Positions 1,139 through 42,940 of a stretch of 64,000 bases of DNA are shown in pieces (position 1 is the first letter of the stretch; each line of letters opens with the position of its first letter). The DNA lies in the NCBI GenBank assembly GCA_003609755.1, contig AP017991.1:2621501-2685500 (forward strand). Direction: 5' to 3'. The position numbers and the translations under genes are program-made. The notes beneath the pieces are model-generated. The model was not told where the DNA came from, did not search any database, and was given only the letters and a program-made list of their open reading frames with translations. Source of the DNA: Planktothrix agardhii NIES-204 (GTDB taxonomy: Bacteria > Cyanobacteriota > Cyanobacteriia > Cyanobacteriales > Microcoleaceae).

Positions 1139-1438
1139 ATGCTGATCAAATTTGAAGAAGTTTGTCAAGATATTGACACTTTACCGGAAGAAGCTCAACT
1201 TTTAATACTGGATTTCATTCAGTTACTAAAAAAGCGTTATCCATCAACAGAATTAGAAAATAAAATTAGGGAAAATGATGTACTATCTACTCTAAGTCCA
1301 AAACCACATCCACTAGACACATTCATCGAGAAATATGGTGCTTGGGAAGATGAACTTACAGCAGAAGAAATAGTGAAAGAAATTTATGATAGCCGTACTG
1401 TTAGCAACTATGATATAGCAATCCTAAATAGGTTGTAA
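1139..1438 (+). CDS. vapB: VapB-type antitoxin (DUF2281-like)
   Basis: A 99-residue protein starting at ATG 1139, chosen because AAGGAG lies seven bases upstream; a longer frame from 1085 lies inside a repeat and is rejected. The N-terminal helix pair (EEVCQDIDTLPEEAQLLILDFIQLLKKR) is the DUF2281 pattern of antitoxins paired with PIN-domain toxins. A WEDELTAEEIVKEIYDSR tail would wrap the toxin. The last seven residues (IAILNRL) and the stop are encoded by the left inverted repeat of a MITE-like element, so the native C-terminus has probably been replaced. VapC follows at 1592 instead of overlapping, as is usual. Confidence 0.7.
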   Translation: MLIKFEEVCQDIDTLPEEAQLLILDFIQLLKKRYPSTELENKIRENDVLSTLSPKPHPLDTFIEKYGAWEDELTAEEIVKEIYDSRTVSNYDIAILNRL

Positions 1439-1584
1439 CATTTCAATACTGATATGAAACGGCCAGAAGTATTACCCCAGATCCCTACCCCCCAAACCCC
1501 CCGTGCACGGGGGGTTTGGGGGGGCTGTTCCGGTGTTCCCTTTTGATCAGGGATTTTAAACACAACTCAAATAGGATTGCTATA
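1414..1584. mobile_element. MITE-like element with TATAGCAATCCTA ends
   Basis: The left end begins TATAGCAATCCTAAATAGGT and the reverse complement of the right end begins TATAGCAATCCTATTTGAGT, giving 13 perfect terminal bases and further imperfect pairing. TA dinucleotides flank both ends, consistent with a TA target duplication as in Tc1/mariner (IS630)-derived MITEs. The core holds the GTGCAC palindrome and a CCGGTGTTCC motif. A second element with related ends lies at 9379-9503. It separates vapB from vapC and encodes no transposase. Confidence 0.7.
1488..1524. repeat. GTGCAC-centred palindrome, copy 2
   Basis: The same CCCCCCGTGCACGGGGGG core with flanking C and G runs, here forming the core of the MITE-like element between vapB and vapC. 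It is followed by GCTGTTCCGGTGTTCCC, also seen after copy 3 near 11,452. The hairpin would sit in the vapB-vapC transcript. Confidence 0.85.
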
Positions 1585-1591
1585 TTAGTTT

Positions 1592-1993
1592 ATGAATTAT
1601 TTATTAGATACCGACATTTGCATTTACTGGATGAAAAATATTAATTCAGTCAGGAGCAAAATTGAGGAGATAGGATGGAGCCAGATTTATATTTGCCATA
1701 TTACTGTGGCTGAATTGTATTTTGGTGCTTATAATTCTCAACGAGTAACAGAAAACTTAAGTCGCGTAGATAACTTTGTTCAAGATATTGAAGTTATATC
1801 TCTAGACGATCGGGCTGGAAAAATGTTTGGAGAATTAAAAGCAAGACTTAGGAAAATAGGACAACCCGTTGCAGATTTTGATTTACTGATTGCGAGTATG
1901 GCTCTGACTAGAAACTATATTTTAGTAACAAATAACACCAGGCATTATAGCCGAATTTCCGCGCTTAAATTAGAAAACTGGATTTCAGCTTAA
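1592..1993 (+). CDS. vapC: VapC-type PIN-domain ribonuclease toxin
   Basis: A 133-residue PIN domain. The metal-binding acidic residues are visible: D in MNYLLDTDIC near the N-terminus, E in VAELYFGA near residue 41, D in ADFDLLIASMA near residue 97, then the TNNTRHYSRI segment. VapC toxins cleave RNA, often tRNA. The partner is the DUF2281-like gene ending at 1438. The gap of about 150 bp is filled by a MITE-like element, so coupled translation is lost. There is no strong ribosome-binding site before ATG 1592. Confidence 0.85.
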   Translation: MNYLLDTDICIYWMKNINSVRSKIEEIGWSQIYICHITVAELYFGAYNSQRVTENLSRVDNFVQDIEVISLDDRAGKMFGELKARLRKIGQPVADFDLLIASMALTRNYILVTNNTRHYSRISALKLENWISA

Positions 1994-2020
1994 TGCAGAA
2001 GTTGTCTTCAATATTCACTA

Positions 2021-2053
2021 TTAAATTCAGTTCTAAGAAAGTCAGCGATCGCA
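2021..2053 (-). pseudogene. second Uma2 C-terminal scrap
   Basis: About 33 bases match the 3' coding end of the Uma2 gene at 6549-7217. Read on the minus strand they give VRSLTFLELNLI, against VRSLTFPELNLT in the intact gene, and include the GCGATCGC octamer. It abuts repeat copy B. It is short, but the position and translation match independently of the 699-793 copy. Confidence 0.55.
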
Positions 2054-2054
2054 C

Positions 2055-2146
2055 GCCGGGTAATTAAAAGGCGATTGAAATCTTCAACCCGCGTCGGCAG
2101 GTTTTGTTTGTGTAGACGCGGTTTCAACCGCCTTTGTTTAAATCTT
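2055..2146 (+). repeat. dispersed intergenic repeat, copy B
   Basis: Nearly identical to 1031-1123 from GCCGGGTAATTAAAAGGCGA through TTCAACCGCCTTTGTTTAAA, with a few changes in the middle. It lies upstream of the hicB-like gene at 2276. Confidence 0.85.
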
Positions 2147-2275
2147 TAATTATTCCCAAAGCATCTTGTATAATCAATCAATGTCCAACTCATTGAACAT
2201 TTATGTCGCCAACACTGGGGTACTGGGCGTTTAGAGGATGTGATCGTGAATTCTATAGAGGAGAATCTATAGAAA

Positions 2276-2533
2276 ATGCTTTATAAGATTCCATTGCTGC
2301 TCTCACCACAACCTGAAGGGGGATTTACGGTGACATCCCCATTATTGCCAGAACTTCTGACCGAGGGTGACACCGTTGAGGAAGCTCTGGCCAATGTTCA
2401 GGATGCTCTAGCTGCTGTGGTTGAGATTTATGAGGATTTAGGACGAGCTTTACAGCTAAATCTGTGCGTTGCTGATGCTAACCATTCCCTGTGGCTAGAA
2501 ACTCTGGTGGTAGAAAGGAATAAATGTAACTAA
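2276..2533 (+). CDS. HicB-like antitoxin-family protein
   Basis: An 85-residue protein with the HicB pattern: KIPLLLSPQPEGGFTVTSPLLPELLTEGDT, then EEALANVQDALAAVVEIYEDLG. No HicA gene is adjacent. The next gene starts two bases after its stop and is a DUF433 antitoxin, so HicB-like, DUF433 and DUF5615 form a three-gene operon. AGAGGAGAA lies about 12 bases upstream of ATG 2276. The tail NHSLWLETLVVER is usual in cyanobacterial members. Confidence 0.75.
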   Translation: MLYKIPLLLSPQPEGGFTVTSPLLPELLTEGDTVEEALANVQDALAAVVEIYEDLGRALQLNLCVADANHSLWLETLVVERNKCN

Positions 2534-2534
2534 A

Positions 2535-2765
2535 ATGACTGCAAAAAGCTTGCTTAATCGAATTACTTATAACCCCAGGCAATGTGGAGGGAGACCTTGC
2601 ATTCGAGGAATGCGAATTCGCGTTTCTGATATTTTAGAGATGCTGGCAGAAAATGTTAGTAGTGGGGAAATTTTAGAAGATTTCCCCGACTTGGAGGCGG
2701 AGGATATTCAAGCTTGTTTGTTGTTTGCTGCCCGACGAACTAATATTCCTAAATTAACAGTATGA
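2535..2765 (+). CDS. DUF433 antitoxin
   Basis: A 76-residue protein with the DUF433 core: RITYNPRQCGGRPCIRGMRIRV, then a winged-helix-like segment ILEMLAENVSSGEILEDFPDLEAEDIQACLLFAARR. The family is known as the antitoxin of PIN-like DUF5615 toxins. Its stop overlaps the ATG of the downstream DUF5615 gene by four bases (ATGA). A relative at 39,622-39,846 has the same core but carries a premature stop. Confidence 0.85.
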   Translation: MTAKSLLNRITYNPRQCGGRPCIRGMRIRVSDILEMLAENVSSGEILEDFPDLEAEDIQACLLFAARRTNIPKLTV

Positions 2766-3058
2766 ATTTTTGGATTGATGCCCAACTTCCTCCAAGTTTA
2801 GCTAATTGGTTGGTCGAAACTTTTAATGTTAATGCTACGGCTATTAGAGATTTGGGGTTACGAGATGCTGAAGATATAGAGATTTTCAATGCTGCCAGGA
2901 ACCCAGGGACGGTTATTGTTAGTAAAGACAGCGATTTTGTGGAGTTAGTTACTCGTTTAGGAACTCCTCCTCAAATTCTCTGGTTGACTTGTGGGAATGT
3001 TCTGAAGGGGGGACGAAATCAGCTACAAGACAGACTCTATAAGCCTCATAGCTCTTAG
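2762..3058 (+). pseudogene. DUF5615 PIN-like toxin, 3' end replaced by IS element
   Basis: The first 80 or so residues are a good DUF5615 (Mut7-C/PIN-like) domain: FWIDAQLPPSLANWLVETF, RDLGLRDAEDIEIF, VIVSKDSDFVELVTRLG and ILWLTCGNV. After GNV, near base 3001, the sequence leaves the family and reads into the IS4-type element, ending 19 residues later. The usual C-terminal helix is missing. Activity is doubtful; the antitoxin upstream is intact. Confidence 0.7.
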
Positions 3059-4273
3059 GCCCTGTTGATAATACTTACATTTATTGCGATTTAATTTCAT
3101 TAGTTTCGTGACTAAATCCATACAAACATCCTTGAAATTGACCCAAGTTTGACCATATAAGCCGATATAAAAACTACTATGTCTCCGTTCTATTCGACCA
3201 TATTCTTTGATCCGAGCAATATATTTCTGTATTCCTTTTCGTTTGATTTGTTGACCCTGTATTGTTGCAGAGGAGTAGGCAATTGCTATCAACAAAACTA
3301 GAGAAATAAAGCGTTCACCAGTTACATTGGTATCCTCTAAATTATAGCCTCCCTTCTTAAAATCTCTAAACATTTCTTCAATATCAAATCTTTGTTTATA
3401 GGCAGAAATAGCCAATTCTAGTGCATCAAAATTCGTTAAGATAAACCATCCTTCTTTCGGTGCTACTCCGTTGATTTTACGTTTCCATTTACAAGCAACG
3501 TTAAAGCTCATAAAACCGCGAGTCTTTGTTACCTTTACACCTTGAATAAAAAATGATACTCCTGGTGCTAAACCTAGATGATTTAATTCCTGAAAAATAT
3601 CTTTTTCAAATTCTACAAATTCGTTCTTTTTTAATCGCAAGCAAAAGTATACACCCAATGATTGAAGGTACTTAGCAAGTTTTACAGAACAAAATTCTCT
3701 ATCCCCTAATACACATATTTTATAGTTTTGAAAAATGGGCATTACTTGAGACAATATTTTTTGCTGCTCATCTATATTACTACTCCCTAATTTGGGCAAT
3801 AATTTAAAATAGATTGGAAAGGCTCTTTTATCCCAAATGACACTCACCATAAATAAATTTATCCGACTCCAATTCGTTCTATCAATTGCTACATAAATTA
3901 TTTCTTCCTTGGTAAAATATATTGATAACCATTCTTTGATAATGGGTAACCAAATTTTTTCAATTTTTAAATTGGGTAATGAGAGAAATCTTTGTATTCT
4001 TTTTCTTCTACTCTCAAATTTAATTGGCAAAGGTATCCCATTCGCTAGCCTTTCTAAATTCACATTTTTGATTGACTGTAAGATGTTCACCAAAATTTGG
4101 AGAAACAGGTATTCTGCTAAACTCAATTGACTTTTTAAGTGCTTTTGATAGAATAAAGGTATCATTTTCATTAGATGGGTCTTATTGACAATATCTGACC
4201 TATCTTTTTTTTACCATAAATCGTTACATTCTTTATACTGTCTTGTTTTCAGCCTTGTTTGTCGCCCCGTCAG
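3002..4273 (-). mobile_element. IS4-family insertion sequence
   Basis: About 1.27 kb containing one transposase gene on the minus strand. Ends were set from imperfect inverted repeats: the left end reads CTGAAGGGGGGACGAAATCA and the reverse complement of the right end reads CTGACGGGGCGACAAACAAG. Both continue to a shared ACAAGACAG at 3025-3033 and 4238-4246. I could not find a clear target-site duplication. The flanking genes are different truncated genes (DUF5615 and Uma2), so insertion was accompanied or followed by a deletion. Confidence 0.7.
3023..4171 (-). CDS. IS4-family DDE transposase
   Basis: A 382-residue transposase. The catalytic triad is visible: D97 in VAIDRTNW, D157 in VLGDREF and E265. 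The last lies inside a perfect IS4 signature, Y258-x2-R261-x3-E265-x6-K272, in the segment SAYKQRFDIEEMFRDFKKGG. The frame is uninterrupted and of full length, so the element may be active. The stop lies inside the left inverted repeat. AT-rich codon use is unlike the housekeeping genes further right. Confidence 0.9.
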   Translation of the reverse strand: MKMIPLFYQKHLKSQLSLAEYLFLQILVNILQSIKNVNLERLANGIPLPIKFESRRKRIQRFLSLPNLKIEKIWLPIIKEWLSIYFTKEEIIYVAIDRTNWSRINLFMVSVIWDKRAFPIYFKLLPKLGSSNIDEQQKILSQVMPIFQNYKICVLGDREFCSVKLAKYLQSLGVYFCLRLKKNEFVEFEKDIFQELNHLGLAPGVSFFIQGVKVTKTRGFMSFNVACKWKRKINGVAPKEGWFILTNFDALELAISAYKQRFDIEEMFRDFKKGGYNLEDTNVTGERFISLVLLIAIAYSSATIQGQQIKRKGIQKYIARIKEYGRIERRHSSFYIGLYGQTWVNFKDVCMDLVTKLMKLNRNKCKYYQQGLRAMRLIESVL

Positions 4274-4894
4274 GTCGAAGCCTTAGACAGTTATTTTCAA
4301 GATAATGCTAATGTTTATGTTTCTGGAAATTTATTTATCTATTACGAACAGGGCAACCCCAAAGCAGTCGTAGCCCCCGATGTGTTTGTGGTGTTTGGCG
4401 TTGAGAAAAAAAAGCGCCCTTCCTACAAGACATGGGAGGAACAGGGCAAAATCCCTGACTTTGTACTGGAAATTACTTCAAAAAGTACGAAGAGTGAAGA
4501 TCGTGGTACGAAAAGAGGTTTATATGCTTATTTGGGAGTGGAAGAATATTTTCAATATGATCCGACTGCTGACTATTTGAAGCCATCTTTGCAAGGATTT
4601 CGTTTGATTGAAGGCAATTATTTACCAATTTCAGAGCAAATTCATGGCGATCGCCTCTGGGTTTATTCTGAAACACTGGGCTTAGAGCTATGGTTAGAGG
4701 CAAATGGTGAGATGCGTTTTTATGCACCCAAGTCAGGAGCTAAATTACTTAGCCCAAGAGAGATGGAACAAGCCAAACATCAAGCTGAACAAGCCCAACA
4801 TCAGGCTGAACAGGCTCAACATCAAGCTGAACAAAGGGCGGCTAAGTTGGCGGCTAAGTTGCGTGAGCTAGGGATTGATCCAGACTTGATTTAA
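4274..4894 (+). pseudogene. Uma2-family (DUF820) protein, 5'-truncated
   Basis: The remaining roughly 206 codons are a Uma2 domain, a PD-(D/E)XK-like fold: SGNLFIYYEQGNPKAVVAPDVFVVFG, then PDFVLEITSKST with the E-x-x-S-K-S-T end of the active site, then YAYLGVEEYFQYDP. Family members normally have 30 to 50 residues ahead of this; here they are replaced by the IS right end, and only a TTG at 4259 inside the IS could serve as a start. The C-terminus is a heptad tail of HQAEQAQ repeats ending in ELGIDPDLI. The role of Uma2 proteins is unknown. Confidence 0.75.
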
Positions 4895-31737: not shown

Positions 31738-34700
31738 ATGGATAACACTAGAGTTAATCACAACCCAGAACAAAACCATCAACAAGATTGCATAGTAGGA
31801 AATATGGGCTACCCCTATTCCGGTCAACCTTGGTTAGTGGAAGAAAGAGACGCCTGCGGGGTGGGATTTATCGCTAACCCGTCCGGGGGTGCTAATCATT
31901 CTATTATTCAAAAAGCCTTACCTGCTTTAACCTGTTTAGAACATCGGGGCGGCTGTAGCGCCGACCAGGACTCCGGGGATGGGGCGGGGATCATGACCGC
32001 AATTCCTTGGGAATTATTAGCCCCTTGGTTTGCTGAACGAAATATTGATATTCTCCAAGAGCCAGAGTTTAAATTTGGGGTGGGGATGGTATTTTTACCC
32101 CAAGATGCTGATTTAGCGATTAAAGCCCGCGAAATTATTGAAACTGACCTCAAACAAGAAGAATTAGTTATTATCGGTTGGCGAGAAGTCCCGGTTAAAC
32201 CGGAAGTCCTGGGAGTACAGGCGCGGGAAAATCAACCCCGCATCGAACAAGTTATGGTTTATTCGGCTAAGGGAAATACCGGGGATGATCTTGACCGACA
32301 ACTGTTTTTAGCCCGTCGATCTTCCGGGGTAGCCTTGAAACAAGATGGGTTAGTCTGGGGTGAGGATATTTATATTTGTTCCTTCTCCTGCCGTACTATT
32401 GTCTATAAAGGTATGGTGCGATCGGCAATCCTGGGAGAATTTTATTTAGATTTAGTTAACCCCGACTATAAGAGCAATTTCGCAGTTTACCATCGACGCT
32501 TCAGTACCAATACCATGCCGCGCTGGCCCTTGGCTCAACCGATGCGACTATTGGGACATAATGGGGAAATTAATACGCTGTTGGGGAATATTAACTGGAT
32601 GCGGGCGCGGGAAAATGTGTTAGCCCATCCGGTTTGGGGCGATCGCTTAAAAACCCTAATTCCCTTTGTGGATGCTACCAATAGCGACTCGGCTAATTTA
32701 GATAATTGTCTGGAGTTGCTAGTGAGAACTGGGCGCTGTCCCTTAGAAGCGCTGATGATTATGGTTCCCGAAGCCTATCAAAACCAGCCTAACCTGAAAG
32801 ATTTACCCGAAATTACGGATTTTTACGAATATTATAGCGGTATCCAAGAACCTTGGGACGGCCCAGCTTTATTGGTCTTCAGTGATGGTAAACAAATTGG
32901 GGCCTGTTTGGATCGTAATGGTCTGCGTCCCGCCCGTTACTGTATCACTAAAGATGGCGTGATCATGGTTTCCTCCGAAGCCGGGGTGGTGGATATTCCC
33001 GAAGACCAAATTCAGGAAAAAGGCCGTTTAGGGCCAGGACAAATGATTGCGGTGGATTTGAGTACCCATGAAGTTCTGAAAAATTGGCAGATCAAACAAC
33101 GGGTCGCCCATGAACACCCCTATCGTTCCTGGTTAGAACAATATCGCCAGGAGGCGGAACCCCAGGCTTTTATTGGTGAAAAACAATTAGCACCGGATAG
33201 CCTTCTCCAACAGCAAACCGCCTTTGGCTATGGGGCGGAGGATGTGGATATCCAAATTTCCGATATGGCGAGTACGGCCAAGGAAGCGACGTTTTGTATG
33301 GGGGATGATACGCCCCTAGCGGTGCTTTCAGATAAACCCCAGTTGTTATATAACTACTTTAAACAACGATTTGCTCAGGTTACAAACCCACCGATTGATC
33401 CTTTGCGAGAACGGATTGTCATGTCCCTCTCCATGCAGTTAGGGAAACGGGGGAATTTGTTAGACCTGAAACCCGAAGACGCCCGACTGTATAAAATTAA
33501 CTCCCCCCTGCTGAATGAGGCGGAGTTAGAAGCCTTACGTCAGTCGGATTTTCCGGGGATCACCCTTTCTACCCTCTATGGTTTGGAAGGAGGGCCGAAT
33601 GGTGCGACGATCGCCCTGACCCGGCTCTGTGAAAAAGCCGCTGAAGCGGTGGATCAGGGCAAAGAAATTATTATTCTGTCCGATCGCGGGTTAACGGCCG
33701 AACAGACCTATATTCCGCCCTTGTTAGCGGTAGGAGCGGTTCACCATTATTTAATTAAAATTGGCAAACGGTTACAAGCCTCCCTGGTGGTAGAAACGGC
33801 CCAATCTTGGAGTACCCATCATTTTGCCTGTTTAGTCGGTTACGGGGCTTCGGCAATTTGTCCCTATATGGCCTTAGAAACCGTGCGTCATTGGTGGTCT
33901 AGTCCCCTAATTCAGAACAATCTGTCCAAGGGCAAAATTCTCCCGATGACCATGGAAAATGCCCAGAAAAACTATCGCCAAGCCGTGGAAGATGGGTTAC
34001 TCAAGATTTTATCGAAGATGGGAATTTCTCTGTTATCTTCCTATCGTGGGGCGCAAATCTTTGAAGCTATTGGGATTGGGGAAGATTTACTGGAAATGGG
34101 TTTCCGGGGTACGGTGTCTCGGGTTGGGGGTTTAAGCATTTCTGAGTTAAGCCAGGAGGTTTATCAATTCCATGCTAAGGCGTTTCCCCTAGAGGCGAAA
34201 AAGTTAGAAAACTTTGGGTTTGTCAATGCCATGAAGCGGGGAGAATATCACTTAAATAACCCGGAAATGACAAAATTGCTCCATCAGGCCGTTCGTTCTG
34301 GCCCCGTAGAGACGTTGCATGGAACGTCTCCAGATGGTGCTAAAGCACAACAACAAGCACAACAACGGTTTGATTTGTACGAACTGTATCGTCAATTTGT
34401 GGAAAACCGCCCAGCCACGGCCTTACGGGATTTATTGGACTTTAACAGCGATCGCAATTCCATCCCATTAGAAGAAGTAGAAACAGTTGAAGAAATTGTC
34501 AAACGCTTCTGTACCGGGGGGATGTCCCTGGGGGCTCTATCTCCCGAAGCCCATGAGGTCTTGGCGATCGCCATGAACCGTTTGGGCGGAAAATCCAACT
34601 CCGGCGAAGGTGGGGAAGATCCCGCCCGCTACAAGATTTTTAACGATGTTGATGAACATGGGATTTCGGCCGGACGTCCCCATTTAAAAGGACTCCAAAA

Positions 34701-36441
34701 CGGAGATAGCGCTAGTTCAGCAATTAAACAGGTGGCGTCGGGACGGTTTGGCGTTACCCCCGAATACCTGATGAATGCTCAGTCCATTGAAATCAAAGTC
34801 GCTCAAGGGGCCAAACCAGGGGAAGGGGGACAACTTCCAGGGAAGAAAGTTAGCGAATATATTGCTATGTTGCGACGGTCTAAACCGGGCGTCACCCTAA
34901 TTTCCCCTCCTCCTCACCATGATATTTATTCCATTGAAGACCTAGCCCAATTAATCTTTGACCTGCACCAAATTAACCCGAAAGCGACGGTTTCGGTCAA
35001 ATTAGTCGCAGAAGTCGGAATTGGAACCATTGCCGCCGGGGTTGCTAAGGCTAACGCCGACTATATCCAAATTTCCGGCCATGACGGGGGGACTGGCGCC
35101 TCTCCCCTAACTTCAATTAAACACGCCGGAAGTCCTTGGGAATTGGGGTTAACGGAAGTCCATCGGGTGTTGATGGGGAATAAACTCCGCGACCGGGTGC
35201 GGTTGCGGGTAGATGGTGGTTTCAAAAGTGGCTGGGATGTGGTGATGGGAGCCTTAATGGGGGCCGAGGAATTCGGCTTTGGAACCATTGCTATGATTGC
35301 AGAAGGCTGTATTATGGCCCGAATTTGCCATACAAATAACTGTCCCGTGGGGGTGACATCTCAACAAGAACGTTTGCGACAACGTTTCCCAGGAACTCCG
35401 GGCCATGTTGTGAACTTCTTCTATTTTGTGGCTGAGGAAGTGCGCCATATTCTAGCGCGGTTGGGATATCGGAAATTAGTCGATTTAATTGGACGGTCTG
35501 ACCTGCTAAAACGTCGGGATGGGGTGAATGTGGCTAAGACCCAACACTTGAATTTAGAGGTCTTTACCCAAGCGCCTGTAACCAGCGATCGCAACTGGTT
35601 AAACCATGAACCCATCCATAGTAACGGCCCGGTCTTGGATGATGTGTTATTAGAAGATGCGGAAATTGCCACCGCTATTCAAAACCAGGGGACGGTAACG
35701 AAATCTCTGCGGATCGTGAATACTGACCGGACGGTGGGGACGCGCATTGCTGGGAAAATCGCCTCTATCTATGGAAATAGTGGCTTTGCTGGACAAATTA
35801 ACCTGAATTTTACAGGTGCAGCAGGTCAGAGTTTTGGCGCTTTCAACCTCCCCGGTATGCAGTTAACCCTAACGGGGGAAGCGAATGATTATGTCGGGAA
35901 GGGGATGCACGGGGGGGAGATTATTATTAAACCCCCGGCGGCTGTTACTTATAACCCTTCTGAGAATGTGATTATCGGGAATACCTGTTTATATGGGGCC
36001 ACGGGGGGAACTTTATACGCCTACGGAAAAGCCGGAGAACGATTTGCGGTAAGGAATTCCTTGGGTAAAGCTGTTATTGAGGGCGCTGGCGACCACTGTT
36101 GTGAATATATGACCGGGGGTGTGGTTGTGGTTCTCGGTAAAGTTGGCCGAAATGTTGGCGCCGGACAGACCGGAGGTTTAGGTTATTTCCTCGATGAAGA
36201 TGGAGATTTCCCCGAAATGGTGAACCCGGAAATCGTCAAAATTCAACGGGTGAGTACGCCGATGGGTGAACAGCAGTTAAAAGAGTTAATCACACAACAC
36301 GCGGAACACACGGTCAGCGAGAAGGCTAAAACTATTCTGGCGAACTGGTCGGAGTATTTACCCAAGTTCTGGCAAGTTGTTCCTCCTTCGGAAAAAGATA
36401 GTCCTGAGGCGTCGGTTGCCGTCGTGGCGGTTGCACTCTAA
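31738..36441 (+). CDS. glsF: ferredoxin-dependent glutamate synthase (Fd-GOGAT)
   Basis: A 1567-residue enzyme making glutamate from glutamine and 2-oxoglutarate. The glutaminase nucleophile is C40 in [11 protein letters not shown], exposed by propeptide removal. The synthase domain has [28 protein letters not shown], the FMN-site [12 protein letters not shown] and [3Fe-4S] cysteines in [12 protein letters not shown]. The close match to plant Fd-GOGAT, down to the [15 protein letters not shown] end, favours ferredoxin over NADH. An in-frame insertion of about 20 residues follows [15 protein letters not shown] at 31,726-31,731 is so close to ATG 31,738 that ATG 31,804 (MGYPYSGQ) is a plausible start. 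Confidence 0.92.
34309..34370 (+). repeat. palindromic repeat inserted in frame in Fd-GOGAT
   Basis: GAGACGTT-gcatgg-AACGTCTC (34,309-34,330) followed by a CAACAAGCACAACAAC-rich tail encodes [20 protein letters not shown], which has no counterpart in the enzymes I know; they pass from LLHQAVRSG almost directly to the YELYRQ helix. The arms match the palindrome at 12,401-12,426, so this is a repeat that entered the gene without breaking the frame. Confidence 0.75.
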
Positions 36442-36462
36442 TTCTTTATAATTTATCAGTAA

Positions 36463-36489
36463 GAAGAATAGGCATTTTGCCTGTTCTTC
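36463..36489 (+). terminator. hairpin after Fd-GOGAT gene
   Basis: GAAGAATAGGCA / TGCCTGTTCTTC forms a twelve-pair stem with one G-U pair and a two- to three-base loop, about 20 bases after the stop. The T-tract is weak, so this is a probable terminator or a 3'-end stabilising hairpin. Confidence 0.6.
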
Positions 36490-36556
36490 TATAAGCACGT
36501 TAGATGTAACGAAACCTCATGACATGACATCCATGTTGTCAAAACAGGAGAGCAAA

Positions 36557-37657
36557 ATGCCCAAACCCCCAAGAATACCACCGGAAGCAGAGATTGCACA
36601 TGAACAAAGAGAAGCCGCAGAAGTAGAAATTCGGGAAAAGCAAAAAACCGTTGACTATGACACAAAAGAATATCCAGTGGAAGTGCTTGTCCAAAAATAT
36701 AGAGATGGACTAGATGAAGATACTAATGAGTTGTATATTCCAGACTATCAACGAGATATGATCTGGGAAGAAACGCGACAGTCAAAGTTTATTGAATCTC
36801 TCCTGCTAGGACTACCCATACCATATATTTTTGTGGCTGATTTGCCACCTAAACAAGAAGATGATCAGGAAGATTTAGCTCGGTTAGAAATTGTTGACGG
36901 AACTCAGCGTATTCGTACTTTAGACAGATTTCTCAACAACGATCTAAAGCTGTATGGATTAGAAAAGCTAAAGCAGCTTAACAACTTCAAATTTAGTGAT
37001 TTGCCTCTGGCGAGACAGAGACGGTTCAACCGTGCCACCATTCGCATGATTGTGCTGAGTGATAAAGCTGATGAAGAAATGAGACGAGATATGTTTGAAC
37101 GCATCAATACTGGTAGTGTTCAACTAAATGATATGGAGAAGCGTAGAGGCATATCTCCTGGCCCATTTGTCGATCTTCTTGAAGAACTAGCCAAAGATCC
37201 CAAATTTATTAAACTATGCCCCATATCAGAAGCACTTGTCCGCAAACGCGAACCTGAAGAATTTGTCTTACGTTTCTTTGCTTATTTAAACAATTATCAG
37301 AATTTTGATAGACAGGTTAATGTATTTCTGAATGAATACCTAGAACAACACAACCATGATGGAATTGACAAAGATGGTATGCGTTCCGAATTTCATAAAA
37401 TGTTAGACTTTATTGAAAAATACTTTCCCAATGGATTTAGTAAATCAAAAGGTCATGTAAAAACACCAAGAATTCGCTTTGAGGCAATTTCTGTGGGTGC
37501 TGCCCTCGCCTTGAGAGAAAAACCTGATCTTGAAATTAATTCAATCAATTGGCTTGAATCAAAAGAATTCAAAGAATATACTACTTCAGATGCCAGTAAC
37601 TCCAAACCTAAAGTAATTAAGCGTATTGAATATGTGCGTGATCAACTTTTAAGTTAA
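36557..37657 (+). CDS. DUF262 (GmrS-N/ParB-fold) protein of putative defence module
   Basis: A 366-residue protein started at ATG 36,557 because CAGGAGAG lies just upstream. The DUF262 core is clear: LYIPDYQRDMIWEE (P-x-Y-Q-R), FIESLLLGLPIPYIFVAD, IVDGTQRIRTLDRFL (D-G-x-Q-R) and RRDMFERINTGSVQLNDMEKRRG. In GmrSD, SspE and related restriction factors this ParB/sulfiredoxin-like fold is an NTPase or nuclease that senses DNA modification. No GmrD-type HNH nuclease is fused; the C-terminus is helical. The HEPN gene starts three bases after its stop, so the two are an operon. Confidence 0.85.
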   Translation: MPKPPRIPPEAEIAHEQREAAEVEIREKQKTVDYDTKEYPVEVLVQKYRDGLDEDTNELYIPDYQRDMIWEETRQSKFIESLLLGLPIPYIFVADLPPKQEDDQEDLARLEIVDGTQRIRTLDRFLNNDLKLYGLEKLKQLNNFKFSDLPLARQRRFNRATIRMIVLSDKADEEMRRDMFERINTGSVQLNDMEKRRGISPGPFVDLLEELAKDPKFIKLCPISEALVRKREPEEFVLRFFAYLNNYQNFDRQVNVFLNEYLEQHNHDGIDKDGMRSEFHKMLDFIEKYFPNGFSKSKGHVKTPRIRFEAISVGAALALREKPDLEINSINWLESKEFKEYTTSDASNSKPKVIKRIEYVRDQLLS

Positions 37658-37659
37658 CT

Positions 37660-38352
37660 ATGCAAACAGTTTTTGAAGAGTTCCATACTCGTGTACACGA
37701 AGTCAACCAATATTTTGTATTTCTGGAGGGGCTTATCCAAGAAAACACAAAATTAGCCGTGTTAGGAGATAATGGTGAGCAAACAATTAAAGCTATCGAT
37801 TCTAACCTGGCAAAAACGCTCAAAGCTAATGCCTTTTTACTACTTTATAATCTTATTGAATCAACTATGCGTAATGCTATAGAAGCTATATTTACTGAAA
37901 TAAGTAGTCAAAGAATTTCCTTTGACGTTGTGAGAATCGAGATCAAAAAAATAGTTATACATAACTTTAAAAAACGTTCACCTGATCATGTTCACTCTAG
38001 GCTCAGAAATATTTCTGTTGATATTATTACTGCTGGTTTCCAGAAAAGAGAATTATTTTCAGGTAATGTTGATCGAGATGAGATTATAAAAGTAGCTAGA
38101 AATTATGGATTCTCTTTTGATACTGACTACTCCAAAACCAAACATGGTGAACATTTATACGATATAATGCAGAATCGAAACGATTTAGCACATGGGAATA
38201 AATCATTTGCAGAAATTGGGCAAAACACAAGTATTGAGGATTTGCTGAAAGTGAAGCAAGAGGTAATAGAGTATCTCCAGCAAATATTACAAAACATTCA
38301 ACAATATTTAGAGAATCAAGAATATTTAGATAGTTCTATACAATATCCTTAA
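37660..38352 (+). CDS. MAE_28990-like HEPN nuclease
   Basis: A 230-residue helical protein. The HEPN ribonuclease motif R-x4-H is visible as RNDLAH near residue 172, and an AFLLLYNLIESTMRNAIEAIF helix lies near residue 55, matching the MAE_28990/MAE_18760 family. HEPN proteins of this type are predicted RNases in defence loci, acting by abortive RNA cleavage. It is the second gene after DUF262; its stop shares a TTAA with the stop of the convergent methyltransferase. Confidence 0.8.
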   Translation: MQTVFEEFHTRVHEVNQYFVFLEGLIQENTKLAVLGDNGEQTIKAIDSNLAKTLKANAFLLLYNLIESTMRNAIEAIFTEISSQRISFDVVRIEIKKIVIHNFKKRSPDHVHSRLRNISVDIITAGFQKRELFSGNVDRDEIIKVARNYGFSFDTDYSKTKHGEHLYDIMQNRNDLAHGNKSFAEIGQNTSIEDLLKVKQEVIEYLQQILQNIQQYLENQEYLDSSIQYP

Positions 38353-39389
38353 TTTTCTTCGTGAATATGTTCTAAAATACTTCGAGCTATTACCATCCCT
38401 AACCTAACGGGAACAGCATTACCAATTAATCGTCCTACTAGATCAATTGCCTGTTGTTTATTAGGGTGTATAAATTCATATTCTGGTGGAAAAGTTTGTA
38501 ATAAAGCTGCTTCTCTCAAAGATATCGCTCTATCTTGTTCAGGATGACCAAACCGACCATTCCCAAAACCAAAACACTGCGTAGTAATCGTTGGACTAGG
38601 TTTACCCCATTCCATTCTACCATATACTGCTGGATAGGTTTTACCGCTTGTTTTTAAGTGACATTCTGCAATTAATTCTTGAGGCCAATCTCGCCAAGTT
38701 CCTCCGGGTTTTGAAGCACGAATACGGCGTAAATTTAGTTGAGAGAGCTTGCTACATCTATGCAACCAATCTATGTTAGAACCTTCACCAGCAGAAAGGG
38801 GTTCAAGGTGTCCAATAGTTTGTCCGACTGTTTGGTAATTATTGGGGTTATGTGTTGGTGGAATTAGGTTGATTTTTCCAAATTTTGAAGCAAGCAAGAC
38901 TAATCGTTTTCGAGATTGAGGAATTCCATAATCCAGACAGTTAACCTCATAAGACTCAAAGCAATAGTCCAACTGTTGCAACTGGGTGATAAACTCCTGA
39001 AAAACTGAATGACGTTTTAATAAAAGTACATTTTCCATTGAAATAATATCGGGTTCGCATTCTTTAATTAAACGAGCAAAATCTTGTAAGAGCTTCCACT
39101 TCAATTGTTGATCGTTATAACGTCTTGAATAACTCGAAAATGGCTGACAGGGAGCGCATCCTGCTAATACTTTAATATGGCTTCCAGAGAAATATTCTGC
39201 TAAATCCCAACCCTTGACATTTTCCACATCTTGCAATATAAATTTTGCTTTGTTGTTATATTCATAAGGAAACTGACAAGCAGGATCGATATCGTATCCA
39301 GCCTTGACTGGAAGACCTGCTTGCTCAAAACCATGAGTTAGTCCTCCAGCACCACAAAACAGATCTACTGTAGAGATGCTTCTAGTCAT
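38349..39389 (-). CDS. DNA (cytosine-5-)-methyltransferase
   Basis: A 346-residue m5C methyltransferase. Motif I VDLFCGAGGLTHGFEQAG, motif IV GCAPCQPFSSYSRR with the catalytic cysteine, motif VI SMENV, motif VIII YGIPQSRKRLVLLAS, motif IX RAISLREAALLQTFP and motif X LIGNAVPVRL are all present. The target-recognition region (about residues 190-260) is short. It converges on the DUF262-HEPN operon, which suggests modification of host DNA paired with an unusual restriction arm. Recognition sequence unknown. Confidence 0.93.
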   Translation of the reverse strand: MTRSISTVDLFCGAGGLTHGFEQAGLPVKAGYDIDPACQFPYEYNNKAKFILQDVENVKGWDLAEYFSGSHIKVLAGCAPCQPFSSYSRRYNDQQLKWKLLQDFARLIKECEPDIISMENVLLLKRHSVFQEFITQLQQLDYCFESYEVNCLDYGIPQSRKRLVLLASKFGKINLIPPTHNPNNYQTVGQTIGHLEPLSAGEGSNIDWLHRCSKLSQLNLRRIRASKPGGTWRDWPQELIAECHLKTSGKTYPAVYGRMEWGKPSPTITTQCFGFGNGRFGHPEQDRAISLREAALLQTFPPEYEFIHPNKQQAIDLVGRLIGNAVPVRLGMVIARSILEHIHEEN

Positions 39390-39478
39390 TCACTTCCTCT
39401 TGTTTAGATATTAACCCAAGGGGGTAGTCTAGCGTATTTGAATACGAAGTACAAGACAGCGAGTTAGTATATTATGTC

Positions 39479-39601
39479 TTAAATACAAGCCCACAGATAA
39501 TCTTGAATGCAACTTAACAGAACTAAACAAATATTAATATCAGTCCCCCTAGCAGCGGCAATTAAAACTCCAGAATCTAAATAAGTTAGAATAATTGTCA
39601 T
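39479..39601 (-). pseudogene. PIN-domain toxin N-terminal remnant
   Basis: The minus strand from ATG 39,601 reads MTIILTYLDSGVLIAAARGT, the start of a VapC-like PIN domain with its first aspartate, then DINICLVLLSCIQDYLWACI and a stop after 40 codons. The rest of the toxin is gone. It lies 21 bp downstream of the inactivated DUF433 gene, the usual place for a toxin. Confidence 0.6.
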
Positions 39602-39621
39602 CTATTTTTACTTCTAAATTG

Positions 39622-39846
39622 TCATGCTACTAATACCGGGTGATTGAGTTTCCGCTAGGCATACAAAAAAGATGCTTTCAAATCATCTGCTTCGAGATCA
39701 GGCATTTCTTCTAATATATCTTCAGCAGTTAGTCCAGCCGCAAACAAGTCTAACACATCGGATACCCGAATTCTCATCCCTCGAATACAGGGACGACCAC
39801 CACATTGCCTAGGATTGATTGTGATTCTTTCTACCAGGGTTGACAT
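39622..39846 (-). pseudogene. DUF433 antitoxin interrupted by an amber codon
   Basis: RITINPRQCGGRPCIRGMRI and RVSDVLDLFAAGLTAEDILE are a complete DUF433 core. The frame stops at TAG (39,655-39,657) after FLYA, but reading through gives RKLNHPVLVA and a TGA, exactly the normal family C-terminus. A single point mutation therefore truncates the protein by 11 residues. The truncated form may keep some function. The associated toxin gene is also broken. Confidence 0.8.
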
Positions 39847-40093
39847 TCAAAACGGCTCCATAATCGCTTTTTTCTAGTATACACTCTTTAATATGCACTC
39901 TTATTTTAGGAATTACAGTTTGAATAAAAATCCTATAGCTCTATTATATCCTTGATTTAATTATTCTATATAAAAACTATTTTTGTCTTCCATACTGGCA
40001 AAAAATTTATAACCAATTAAAATGAATGCTTAAAATCAATGATAAAAATATTCCTGAAAAACGATATAATATAAACCATCCCTAATCCTCCTG

Positions 40094-41581
40094 ATGTTTA
40101 TTCCTATGCTGGCTGAACAATCAAAAGTAACCCGAAATTGGCAACCCTTAATTCCACAATTTGAGGCTATAGTTGGGAAAAAAGGCGTGATTCAACGTCG
40201 AGAAGAATTACTGGTTTATGAATGTGATGGACTGACTAGCTATCGTCAACGTCCCGCATTAGTTGTGTTACCAAAAACCACAGAAGAAGTTGCAGAAGTT
40301 GTTAAAATTTGCGATCGCAATTCTATTCCTTGGGTCGCACGAGGAGCGGGAACCGGACTTTCTGGTGGCGCTTTACCCGTAGAAGATTGTGTTTTAATTG
40401 TCACCGCTTTAATGCGAAAAATCCTAAATATTGACCTAGAAAATCAGCGCGTTGTAGTGCAACCAGGAGTAATTAATAATTGGGTAACACAAGCAGTTAG
40501 TGGGGCAGGTTTTTATTATGCTCCTGACCCTTCTAGTCAAATTATTTGTTCTATTGGGGGAAATGTTGCCGAAAATTCTGGCGGCGTTCATTGTTTAAAA
40601 TATGGGGTGACAACTAACCATATTCTAGGGCTAAAAATCGTCACTCCCGATGGTGATATTGTCGATATTGGTGGCAATATTCCCGAAATGCCGGGATATG
40701 ATTTAACCGGATTATTTGTCGGTTCAGAAGGGACGTTAGGCATTGCCACTGAAATCACATTAAGAATTTTAAAAACACCGGAATCAATTTGTGTCTTATT
40801 AGCAGATTTTACCAATTTAGAATCGGTTGGATCTGCGGTTTCTGATATTATTAGTTCTGGGATTATTCCTGGGGGTATGGAAATTATGGATAACCTCAGT
40901 ATTAATGCCGTTGAAGATGTGGTAAAAATTGGTTTATATCCTCGGGATGCGGGGGCAATTCTATTAGTGGAATTAGATGGTTTACAGGTAGAAGTTGATA
41001 CTAATAAACAACGGGTTAGTGAAATTTGTATCAACAATGGGGCGAGAAATATTACCACTGCTAGTAATGCAGAAGATCGGTTAAAAATTTGGAAAGGACG
41101 CAAAGCAGCTTTCGCTGCGGCGGGTCATGTCAGTCCTGATTATTATGTTCAAGATGGCGTAATTCCCCGGACAAAAATGGCTTATGTTCTCAAAGAAATT
41201 GAAGCCCTTGGAGAAAAATATGGATATCGTATTGCTAATGTATTTCATGCAGGCGATGGGAATTTACATCCTTTAATTTTATATGATAATTCCGTTCCAG
41301 GTGCGTTAGAAACCGTTGAAGAAATTGGCGGCGAAATTCTTAAAATATGTGTGGAAGTGGGGGGAAGTTTATCGGGAGAACATGGAATTGGTGCGGATAA
41401 AAAATGTTATATGCCCCAAATGTTTAACGAAGTTGATTTAGAAACTATGCAATGGGTAAGAACAGTTTTTAACCCTCAAGGTTTAGCCAACCCCGGTAAA
41501 ATGTTACCCACTCCTCGCACCTGTGGAGAGTCCGCCAAACTGCAAAATATTAAACAGTTTGAAGGTGCAGAAGTATTTTAG
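40094..41581 (+). CDS. glcD: glycolate oxidase subunit GlcD (FAD-linked)
   Basis: A 495-residue FAD_binding_4 oxidase. The FAD-binding block VARGAGTGLSGGALPVEDCVLIV is near residue 93, followed by PDPSSQIICSIGGNVAENSGGVHCLKYG and GSEGTLGIATEITL. The C-terminal FAD-linked oxidase domain ends NVFHAGDGNLHPLILYD and SGEHGIGADKKCYM. GlcD oxidises glycolate (or D-lactate) to glyoxylate in photorespiration. The start may be ATG 40,106 rather than 40,094. TATAAT at 40,065-40,070 is a likely -10 box. GlcE/F are not adjacent. Confidence 0.9.
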   Translation: MFIPMLAEQSKVTRNWQPLIPQFEAIVGKKGVIQRREELLVYECDGLTSYRQRPALVVLPKTTEEVAEVVKICDRNSIPWVARGAGTGLSGGALPVEDCVLIVTALMRKILNIDLENQRVVVQPGVINNWVTQAVSGAGFYYAPDPSSQIICSIGGNVAENSGGVHCLKYGVTTNHILGLKIVTPDGDIVDIGGNIPEMPGYDLTGLFVGSEGTLGIATEITLRILKTPESICVLLADFTNLESVGSAVSDIISSGIIPGGMEIMDNLSINAVEDVVKIGLYPRDAGAILLVELDGLQVEVDTNKQRVSEICINNGARNITTASNAEDRLKIWKGRKAAFAAAGHVSPDYYVQDGVIPRTKMAYVLKEIEALGEKYGYRIANVFHAGDGNLHPLILYDNSVPGALETVEEIGGEILKICVEVGGSLSGEHGIGADKKCYMPQMFNEVDLETMQWVRTVFNPQGLANPGKMLPTPRTCGESAKLQNIKQFEGAEVF

Positions 41582-42355: not shown

Positions 42356-42940
42356 ATGGCGATCGCAACTGTTAAAAAATTTACCATCGAAGACTATCAT
42401 CGCCTAACTGAATTAGGCTTTTTTCAAGAAAATGATCGAGTTGAACTCATTCGCGGAGAAATCATTGAAATGGCAGCAAAAGGAAGAATGCACGAAACTT
42501 GTCTAAGAAAATTATTACGAGAATTGAGTCATTTAATCAGAGAAAAGGCAACTTTACAATGTCAATCTCCTATTCTATTACTGCCTAATAGTGAGCCCGA
42601 ACCAGACTTTACAATTCTTAGAAATCGACAGGATGATTATGCAACTTCTCATCCTACTGCACAAGATATTTTACTGCTCATTGAGGTTTCTGATTCCTCT
42701 TTAAACTATGATCAAACTACAAAACTATCGGTTTATGCTGAAAATAATATTACCGATTATTGGATATTTAATTTAGTCGATTTTTGTTTAGAATGTTATA
42801 GCGAACCCTATCAAAAATTACAAGGCGAGTTTGGTTATCTTCGTAAACTGATTTATTTACCTAATCAGTCTGTAAACTTACCTTATTTTCCCGATTCAAC
42901 CTTAGATTTATCTAAAGTATTTCCGCCTAAAACTAATTAG
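42356..42940 (+). CDS. Uma2-family (DUF820) protein
   Basis: A 194-residue Uma2 protein: KFTIEDYHRLTELGFFQENDRVELIRGEIIEMA, PEPDFTILRNRQDD, DILLLIEVSDSSLNYDQTTKLSVYAENNITDYWIFNL. The D, E-V-S and K residues fit the restriction-like fold. It belongs to a different subgroup from 6549-7217. Its start codon is embedded in ATGGCGATCGCA, a HIP1 octamer. The function is unknown. Confidence 0.85.
   Translation: MAIATVKKFTIEDYHRLTELGFFQENDRVELIRGEIIEMAAKGRMHETCLRKLLRELSHLIREKATLQCQSPILLLPNSEPEPDFTILRNRQDDYATSHPTAQDILLLIEVSDSSLNYDQTTKLSVYAENNITDYWIFNLVDFCLECYSEPYQKLQGEFGYLRKLIYLPNQSVNLPYFPDSTLDLSKVFPPKTN

Follow-up and report, generated by a model that had tools for sequence, protein, structure and literature searches.

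What could a methyltransferase that would mark host DNA, a protein of the DUF262 family and a putative HEPN ribonuclease (RNase) be doing side by side in one small locus? The question is raised by a 64,000-nucleotide stretch of the genome of the cyanobacterium Planktothrix agardhii NIES-204, called the window below, in which a DUF262-HEPN gene pair converges on a gene for a DNA cytosine-C5 methyltransferase (MTase). The answer developed here is tentative and, taken in all its parts, still doubtful: a DUF262 reader and a matched writer of 5-methylcytosine (m5C) would have been inherited together, the RNase cartridge would have been exchanged between two old HEPN types, and the reader would be armed, not silenced, by the host mark. 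The three genes and their motifs are listed here.

36524..37657, plus strand: DUF262 / GmrSD_N (ParB-Srx fold) protein, 377 aa
36740..36754, plus strand: PDYQR motif, DUF262 residues 73-77
36893..36910, plus strand: VDGTQR nucleotide-pocket motif, DUF262 residues 124-129
37660..38352, plus strand: HEPN protein of the MAE_28990 family, 230 aa, type A of the two exchanged types
38176..38193, plus strand: R-x4-H RNase motif RNDLAH (R173, H178) of the HEPN protein
38349..39389, minus strand: DNA cytosine-C5 MTase, 346 aa (PF00145, E 5.7e-54; PADLOC models MTase_II, 1e-88, and DrmMII, 1.2e-88)
39144..39152, minus strand: PCQ catalytic motif, MTase C81

The first in-frame ATG of the DUF262 frame lies at 36524 and the second at 36557; the latter, giving a product of 366 aa, is probably the start, because the near relatives L071 and L073 are 366 aa long. 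Two bases separate the DUF262 and HEPN genes, and the MTase gene overlaps the HEPN gene, with which it is convergent, by four bases at 38349-38352. The trio is flanked by Fd-GOGAT (31738-36441) on one side and a glcD-like FAD-linked oxidase gene (40094-41581) on the other, and the Pfam domains of both agree with these names. An earlier note on this DNA had placed a DUF262 protein, a MAE_28990-type HEPN protein with an intact R-x4-H motif and a full m5C MTase between these flanks, with no ordinary restriction endonuclease, and the reading frames and Pfam bear this out. The DUF262 protein matches GmrSD_N/DUF262 (E 1.9e-28), the best family of the HEPN protein is HEPN_MAE_28990 (PF18737, E 6.7e-37) with PF18735 second (38.2 bits against a cut-off of 28.4), and the MTase spans positions 2-323 of the 324 of the DNA_methylase profile. 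No restriction-nuclease domain was found by Pfam in the three proteins; the sole nuclease-like protein among eight neighbours scanned, flanks included (GOGAT, FAD oxidase, DUF1295, Uma2, a class II tRNA synthetase and others), is a Uma2-family "putative restriction endonuclease" (window 42356-42940), which lies 3 kb away and is probably unrelated to the trio.

All the motifs examined are intact. PDYQR and VDGTQR are both kept in the window DUF262, and (I/V)DGQQR is given as the nucleotide-pocket motif of DUF262 proteins in passages of one paper (PMC10952713). The MTase keeps PCQ, ENV and QxRxR in the alignment. The HEPN motif R173-N-D-L-A-H178 is complete, and R-x4-H is kept in 87 of 88 aligned rows (34/34 MTase-bearing and 53/54 MTase-less); a further exception, L055, has lysine in place of the motif arginine in a separate alignment. 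Structures were predicted as single chains. The DUF262 model resembles the folds of BrxU and SspE, with DndI lower, the best Foldseek match reaching an E of only 1.2e-3 and a profile search of PDB sequences returning weak matches only (20yv, E 0.0021). For the HEPN model, Foldseek gave 0 PDB matches at E <= 0.001 and the corresponding profile search just two unrelated-looking chains; VIA-align ranked HEPN toxins at the top, the predicted fold being like that of MNT-HEPN toxins. A HEPN fold together with R-x4-6-H is what characterizes HEPN endoRNases, and the window protein appears to combine the two.

The HEPN exchange is seen in a conflict between gene histories. Across 38 full-length trios (L155, L179 and the viral contigs left out), pairwise distances for DUF262, HEPN and MTase are correlated with one another at 0.86-0.93. 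Among the 26 cyanobacterial trios the DUF262-MTase correlation is 0.74, a value as high being reached in 0 of 2000 permutations, and HEPN correlates at 0.25 with DUF262 or MTase, though it is located between both. The HEPN tree separates type A, the window's, from type B with full support, and the tree of DUF262 plus MTase mixes the two: L115 (type B) stands beside L072, L073 and L077 (type A) with support of 100/100, and at least six changes of HEPN type fall on this tree. With the groups named after the trees had been seen, the approximately unbiased (AU) test rejected type A as one group on the DUF262+MTase data (p 3.5e-78) and the converse on the HEPN data (p 9.1e-42); on DUF262 alone, in a tree of 80 rows (without L124, L145, L059, L062, L063, L150 and L146, and without short proteins), a single type A clade was again rejected (p 1.9e-5). 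The same pattern is visible in the DNA. Between L073 and L115 identity is about 0.9 in DUF262, about 0.6 in HEPN and about 0.96 in the MTase gene, falling at the DUF262 end and recovering some 50 bases into the MTase end. Set against the window's trio, Scytonema NIES-4073 (L095) scores 0.85 for DUF262, 0.53 for HEPN and 0.78 for the MTase. Chimaeric metagenome-assembled genomes (MAGs) are not a likely cause, because records that by title are not MAGs, Scytonema NIES-4073 for example, also show the exchange. HEPN types have been exchanged, as the tree conflict shows, and the comparison of many copies suggests a matched marker and reader whose RNA-cutting partner is replaced.

HEPN proteins swapped between constant DUF262-MTase frames would also fit a contested back-up arm. 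Such a PrrC-like role has been proposed for HEPN proteins in restriction-modification (R-M) operons, by analogy with PrrC-PrrI, in passages of a comparative genomic survey (Anantharaman et al., 2013; PMC3710099); applied to the window, DUF262 and the MTase would form a first line on DNA and HEPN a second line, freed by a phage inhibitor. This account is decidedly unlikely for the trio, in which Pfam finds no nuclease domain for a first line (no DUF1524, no PD-(D/E)XK family) and whose DUF262-HEPN pairs persist elsewhere without the MTase.

The trio travels as a unit. A survey of 386 genomes of the cyanobacterial phylum found HEPN relatives in 28, the window's genome included, and yielded 29 loci from 26 non-window genomes, a weak match in G268 being left out; DUF262 adjoins HEPN in 29/29 of them and the MTase of the window lineage is present in 8 (9/30 with the window). 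From GTDB genome contigs, 80 of 173 loci were kept, several of them shared with the survey. Here DUF262 adjoins HEPN in 78/80, and an MTase lies within 1 kb of the pair in 29/80 by script, or 30 with L148, an MTase-bearing locus whose HEPN frame is in pieces and which is counted in the trees and in the 30/80 but not in the script's 29. On IMG/VR viral contigs DUF262 stands beside HEPN in 12/12 cases, with an m5C MTase in 11, the twelfth stopping at a contig edge. HEPN and DUF262 are associated beyond chance in these three sets of loci, of which the first two overlap. Co-occurrence of the whole trio, on which the earlier note had staked its interpretation, gave a mixed picture. MTase relatives occur at E <= 1e-60 in 14/386 cyanobacterial genomes, and the nearest nine (51-100% identity) all stand beside a DUF262-HEPN pair, but five at 40-42% identity are found in genomes without a HEPN match, beside other genes (an AAA ATPase in one scanned case, a frame without a Pfam family in another), and among 17 plasmid neighbourhoods viewed (of 28 records) nine are trios and eight are not.

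HEPN relatives were found in 15/72,556 plasmid records and 11/50,697 phage records. Trio-bearing plasmids come from Klebsiella, Roseomonas (2), Rhodococcus (2), Phaeobacter, Polaromonas, Azospirillum and Rhizobium tumorigenes, and the trio is also present in Moraxella phage Mcat24. In R. tumorigenes it is followed by a gene for Vsr, a mismatch endonuclease expected where host DNA has m5C, and its presence therefore fits an m5C-carrying host DNA. The P2-like phage P24B2 holds the trio beside a phage replication gene, at a place which we take to be the old-tin site of P2, with the MTase frame broken in the record; the P24B2 copy recurs in at least 7 of 5426 Escherichia coli genomes (a lower bound from megablast), three of them near-identical to P24B2. 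In the stretches read from an E. coli plasmid and from Klebsiella aerogenes, the DUF262-HEPN pair stands without an MTase. On the viral contigs L171, L173 and L174 the order is MTase-DUF262-HEPN, the upstream MTase scoring as a more distant m5C lineage; a cytosine MTase was apparently recruited independently there. These observations support a trio that is conserved, moves as a unit and occupies locations typical of defence genes, with an MTase lineage that behaves as modification subunits do in R-M-like systems.

Two further partnerships were seen in passing. Escherichia phage PhiR44_1, also P2-like, has a window-lineage MTase beside ParaMORC3 (HATPase_c_3) between gpA and gpQ (L160:4498-7546), and a Verrucomicrobiales locus (L145:4621-9896) combines MTase, HEPN and an SNF2-type helicase, with no DUF262 found adjoining, as another partner swap.

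What happens when the writer is lost can be read from natural variants. Pairs without METHYLTRANSFERASE, the window-lineage MTase, make up 50/80 GTDB-contig loci, 36 of them with a full-length DUF262; three of the 50 (L080, L126, L143) lie at contig ends, are not judgeable and were left out of the MTase counts on the DUF262 tree. No MTase relative at E <= 1e-30 was found in 22/22 MTase-less genomes searched, that of Aphanizomenon flos-aquae FACHB-1287 among them, and three MTase-bearing controls gave theirs. A scan of the next gene downstream at 12 MTase-less loci found an N4/N6 DNA methylase (PF01555) in L116 and no DNA methylase family in the other 11. In Aphanizomenon flos-aquae FACHB-1287 (L078) the MTase is cleanly deleted, the flanks being as in Dolichospermum circinale AWQC310F (L082), where it is kept; the two share 354/365 DUF262 and 212/232 HEPN residues, and a 1066-aa frame without a Pfam family (L078:1379-4579), not there in L082, is inserted just upstream of DUF262. 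MTase presence changes 5 times on the DUF262-only tree and 10 times on the HEPN tree. A concatenated DUF262+HEPN tree gives 11 changes, 9 forced by starred branches, but mixes two histories because HEPN recombines, and the DUF262-only figure is used.

Both genes of the MTase-less clade are under purifying selection, with omega values of 0.13-0.23 in 9 pairs, close to those of trios (0.11-0.26, 9 pairs). Three pairs that touch MTase losses nested among trios, as placed on the concatenated tree, reach 0.38, 0.65 and 0.58. In a Microcoleus-type clade (L085-L088, L090, L092, L093, L096 and L107, with mostly the same neighbours) DUF262 is cut down to its N-terminal ~177-187 residues, and the HEPN next to it is full-length; constraint persists, at an omega of 0.17-0.31, and the clade may hold a mini-system. 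Truncated DUF262 rows are MTase-less in 16/17 cases, L080 among the 16 not being judgeable for the MTase. A tie between MTase loss and DUF262 truncation was considered and dropped as evidence on mechanism, as the pattern amounts to 5 independent pairs with 0-2 informative.

These variants bear on the three-part interpretation of the earlier note, in which the MTase guards self, unmethylated DNA is sensed by DUF262 and HEPN responds by cutting RNA, so that restriction would kill via RNA. The conserved mobile unit, the R-M-like MTase and the full HEPN RNase motif have stood; the unmarked-DNA trigger found no support. It would explain why the trio is nearly always complete on viral contigs, as if the MTase must shield a new host, why MTases of this lineage have been exchanged between R-M-like partners, and why truncated DUF262 proteins sit mostly at MTase-less loci, although the last pattern carries the limit just given. 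Against it, the many loci that keep the pair without the MTase, most with a full-length DUF262 and one by clean deletion, are common among relatives, and characterised DUF262 proteins, in the published passages drawn on here, read modified DNA. Because the pairs persist under constraint and with R-x4-H kept, an unmethylated genome alone seems unable to set off a lethal HEPN, barring cover in trans by another MTase. The unmarked-DNA trigger is accordingly an unlikely account.

Another interpretation gives the MTase no central part: an autonomous pair of the PD-T4-2 kind would sense a phage product or modified phage DNA, with the MTase as an optional passenger, acquired or retained on other grounds. 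The constrained MTase-less clade, the match of DUF262 to the PADLOC PD-T4-2_A model and the MTase-free stretches of K. aerogenes and the E. coli plasmid all suit it. It does not sit well with an MTase that recurs at varied positions and from different m5C lineages (upstream in L171, L173 and L174), with the co-divergence of DUF262 and MTase, or with an MTase presence that tracks DUF262 ancestry (5 changes against 10), and its probability is considered low.

A mechanism can be assembled from what was computed, namely the genes, motifs and predicted folds, the conservation of the mobile unit, the co-divergence, the HEPN exchange and the surviving MTase-less pairs. That the trio is, in some form, a mobile anti-invader cassette of writer, reader and effector is somewhat more likely than not. 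The MTase would write m5C onto a short motif of host DNA. DUF262 would be an NTP-binding ParB-fold reader matched to this mark, and HEPN an endoRNase kept silent in company with DUF262; an encounter with invading DNA would set HEPN free to cut RNA and stop the infection. The SspE-like order, in which DUF262 is armed by the self mark, is favoured by analogy over the unmarked-DNA trigger, with a chance that we put somewhat short of even. Binding of marked self DNA would charge DUF262 through NTP hydrolysis and release from self DNA, and contact of the charged protein with foreign DNA would lead to firing; loss of the MTase would disarm the system and would not kill the cell, and a stable MTase-less clade must then have another trigger. 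This order fits better, GmrSD, BrxU and SspE, the characterised DUF262 proteins, being described as acting on modified DNA; it predicts co-divergence of reader and writer, survivable loss of the writer and possibly relaxed selection afterwards. DNA methylation, mark reading, NTPase and RNase activities, protein contacts and phage protection are the steps that we infer.

Several points weigh against the armed-reader proposal. The HEPN correlation of 0.25 exceeds what chance would give (equalled in 14 and 7 of 2000 permutations), and DUF262 and MTase may have co-diverged simply by vertical descent, HEPN alone recombining; the exchange is silent on what HEPN recognises. The full-length DUF262 model is moderate (pTM 0.57). 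As the large MTase-less clade is constrained, DUF262-HEPN can apparently work without a writer, and the MTase-less genomes may hold another MTase of equal specificity. Relaxation after loss is uneven: a fourth pair touching a nested loss (L120-L111) shows none, with an omega of 0.15, the relaxed pairs have low synonymous divergence (dS 0.04-0.14), L078-L082 being weak in particular, and the trio pair L100-L104 (dS 0.01-0.03; outside the 9-pair trio set) also reaches 0.26-0.57.

The chromosomal site speaks to the kind of element involved. In the same-species genome G255, homology to the window ends on the left at 36434, just before the GOGAT stop codon, and restarts at 40030; in the GOGAT-glcD gap a 1171-aa single-chain R-M enzyme (HSDR_N_2 + N6_Mtase + Methylase_S) replaces the trio.

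36435..40029, no strand: segment of the window absent from G255
L190 (G255:C1:3017000-3023600), ORF 1166-4681: R-M enzyme of G255

Since the same gap holds an R-M enzyme in G255, it is likely a chromosomal defence hotspot that swaps cassettes. This occupancy is hard to reconcile with a toxin-antitoxin or addiction module, in which HEPN would be the toxin, DUF262 the antitoxin and the MTase a further addiction element, none of the three serving in phage defence. The predicted HEPN fold like that of MNT-HEPN toxins, the two-gene operon order and the occurrence on plasmids would agree with such a module; the trio beside the replication gene of a P2-like phage, where a sister phage has MTase and ParaMORC3, and truncated DUF262 proteins coexisting with full-length HEPN would not, and we regard it as very improbable.

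Around this site, a 63-aa DUF433 frame (window 39655-39846) adjoins the cassette, and in the same-genus genome G157 two DUF433-like copies lie just after GOGAT near a transposase-like gene (L192, read by eye). A near-palindromic repeat of ~28 bases lies inside the Fd-GOGAT reading frame (window 34302-34330), with ~10 other sites in this genome and ~20 in G157. The window's own genome (G000; C1, C4; L001-L003, L005, L006) holds five further DUF262 places, one being a fragment that contains a stop codon.

The trio has been listed in comparative genomics since 2013, and the present results frame concrete questions: whether DUF262 reads the mark of its own MTase, whether that enzyme serves as antidote or arms the system, and what makes the RNase the exchanged part. 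The natural MTase-less relatives are ready controls. If the proposal is true, DNA-modification sensing would be joined to RNA-targeting immunity in one compact mobile cassette, with a range that extends from cyanobacteria to prophages of E. coli.

Among known systems, PD-T4-2 reportedly comes from a 2022 study by Vassallo and colleagues, and Menshen, whose DUF262 protein is presumably NsnA, is said to come from one by Millman and colleagues of the same year. PADLOC places the window DUF262 nearest to NsnA (6.9e-62), and it also matches PD-T4-2_A (2.1e-34); no PD-T4-2 model of PADLOC matches the window HEPN at E <= 0.1, and at four related loci on plasmids and phages the HEPN proteins match no PADLOC model at all at E <= 0.01. 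Menshen is described as DUF262 with a predicted OLD nuclease (PMC10952713), a partner found neither in the trio nor in the DUF433 frame or the eight neighbouring proteins scanned. The SspABCD-SspE and GmrSD/BrxU systems have the DUF262 fold and motifs in common with the window protein. SspE is described as needing a mark in host DNA, releasing it after GTP hydrolysis and then acting; it is a reader armed by a host-written mark, whereas in the window m5C would serve as the mark and a separate RNase as the effector. The DUF1524 nuclease domain of GmrSD/BrxU is absent from the trio and the eight neighbours scanned, as is the drmA/drmB/drmC or drmD core of DISARM from the eight neighbours of the MTase, and in contrast to Type II R-M the predicted m5C MTase has no endonuclease family beside it in the trio.

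No experimental study of the trio was found in the open-licence PMC literature searched, where the HEPN-type exchange, the co-divergence of DUF262 with the MTase and the MTase deletion in nature were not met either; the trio itself has been known since 2013. Table 1 of Anantharaman et al. (2013; PMC3710099) gives the MAE_28990 HEPN as "in operon with a ParB nuclease and DNA methylase genes", so that a published link of HEPN and DUF262 with methylases, mentioned in the earlier note, does exist. The passages on this row mention no HEPN exchange, co-divergence, MTase-less pairs, mini-DUF262 or row-specific mechanism; the row has its methylase in the operon, that of the window is convergent, and the HEPN family with R-x4-6-H, the ParB/DUF262 partner and the DNA methylase association are the same. 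PD-T4-2, reported as an antiphage system (PMC10952713), likewise joins a DUF262 protein with a HEPN protein; its HEPN is PF18735 in that source, the second family of the window protein, and the passages on it name no MTase, which the window has. The window trio belongs with these MAE_28990 systems of 2013, and PD-T4-2 is a known defence system with a DUF262-HEPN pair.

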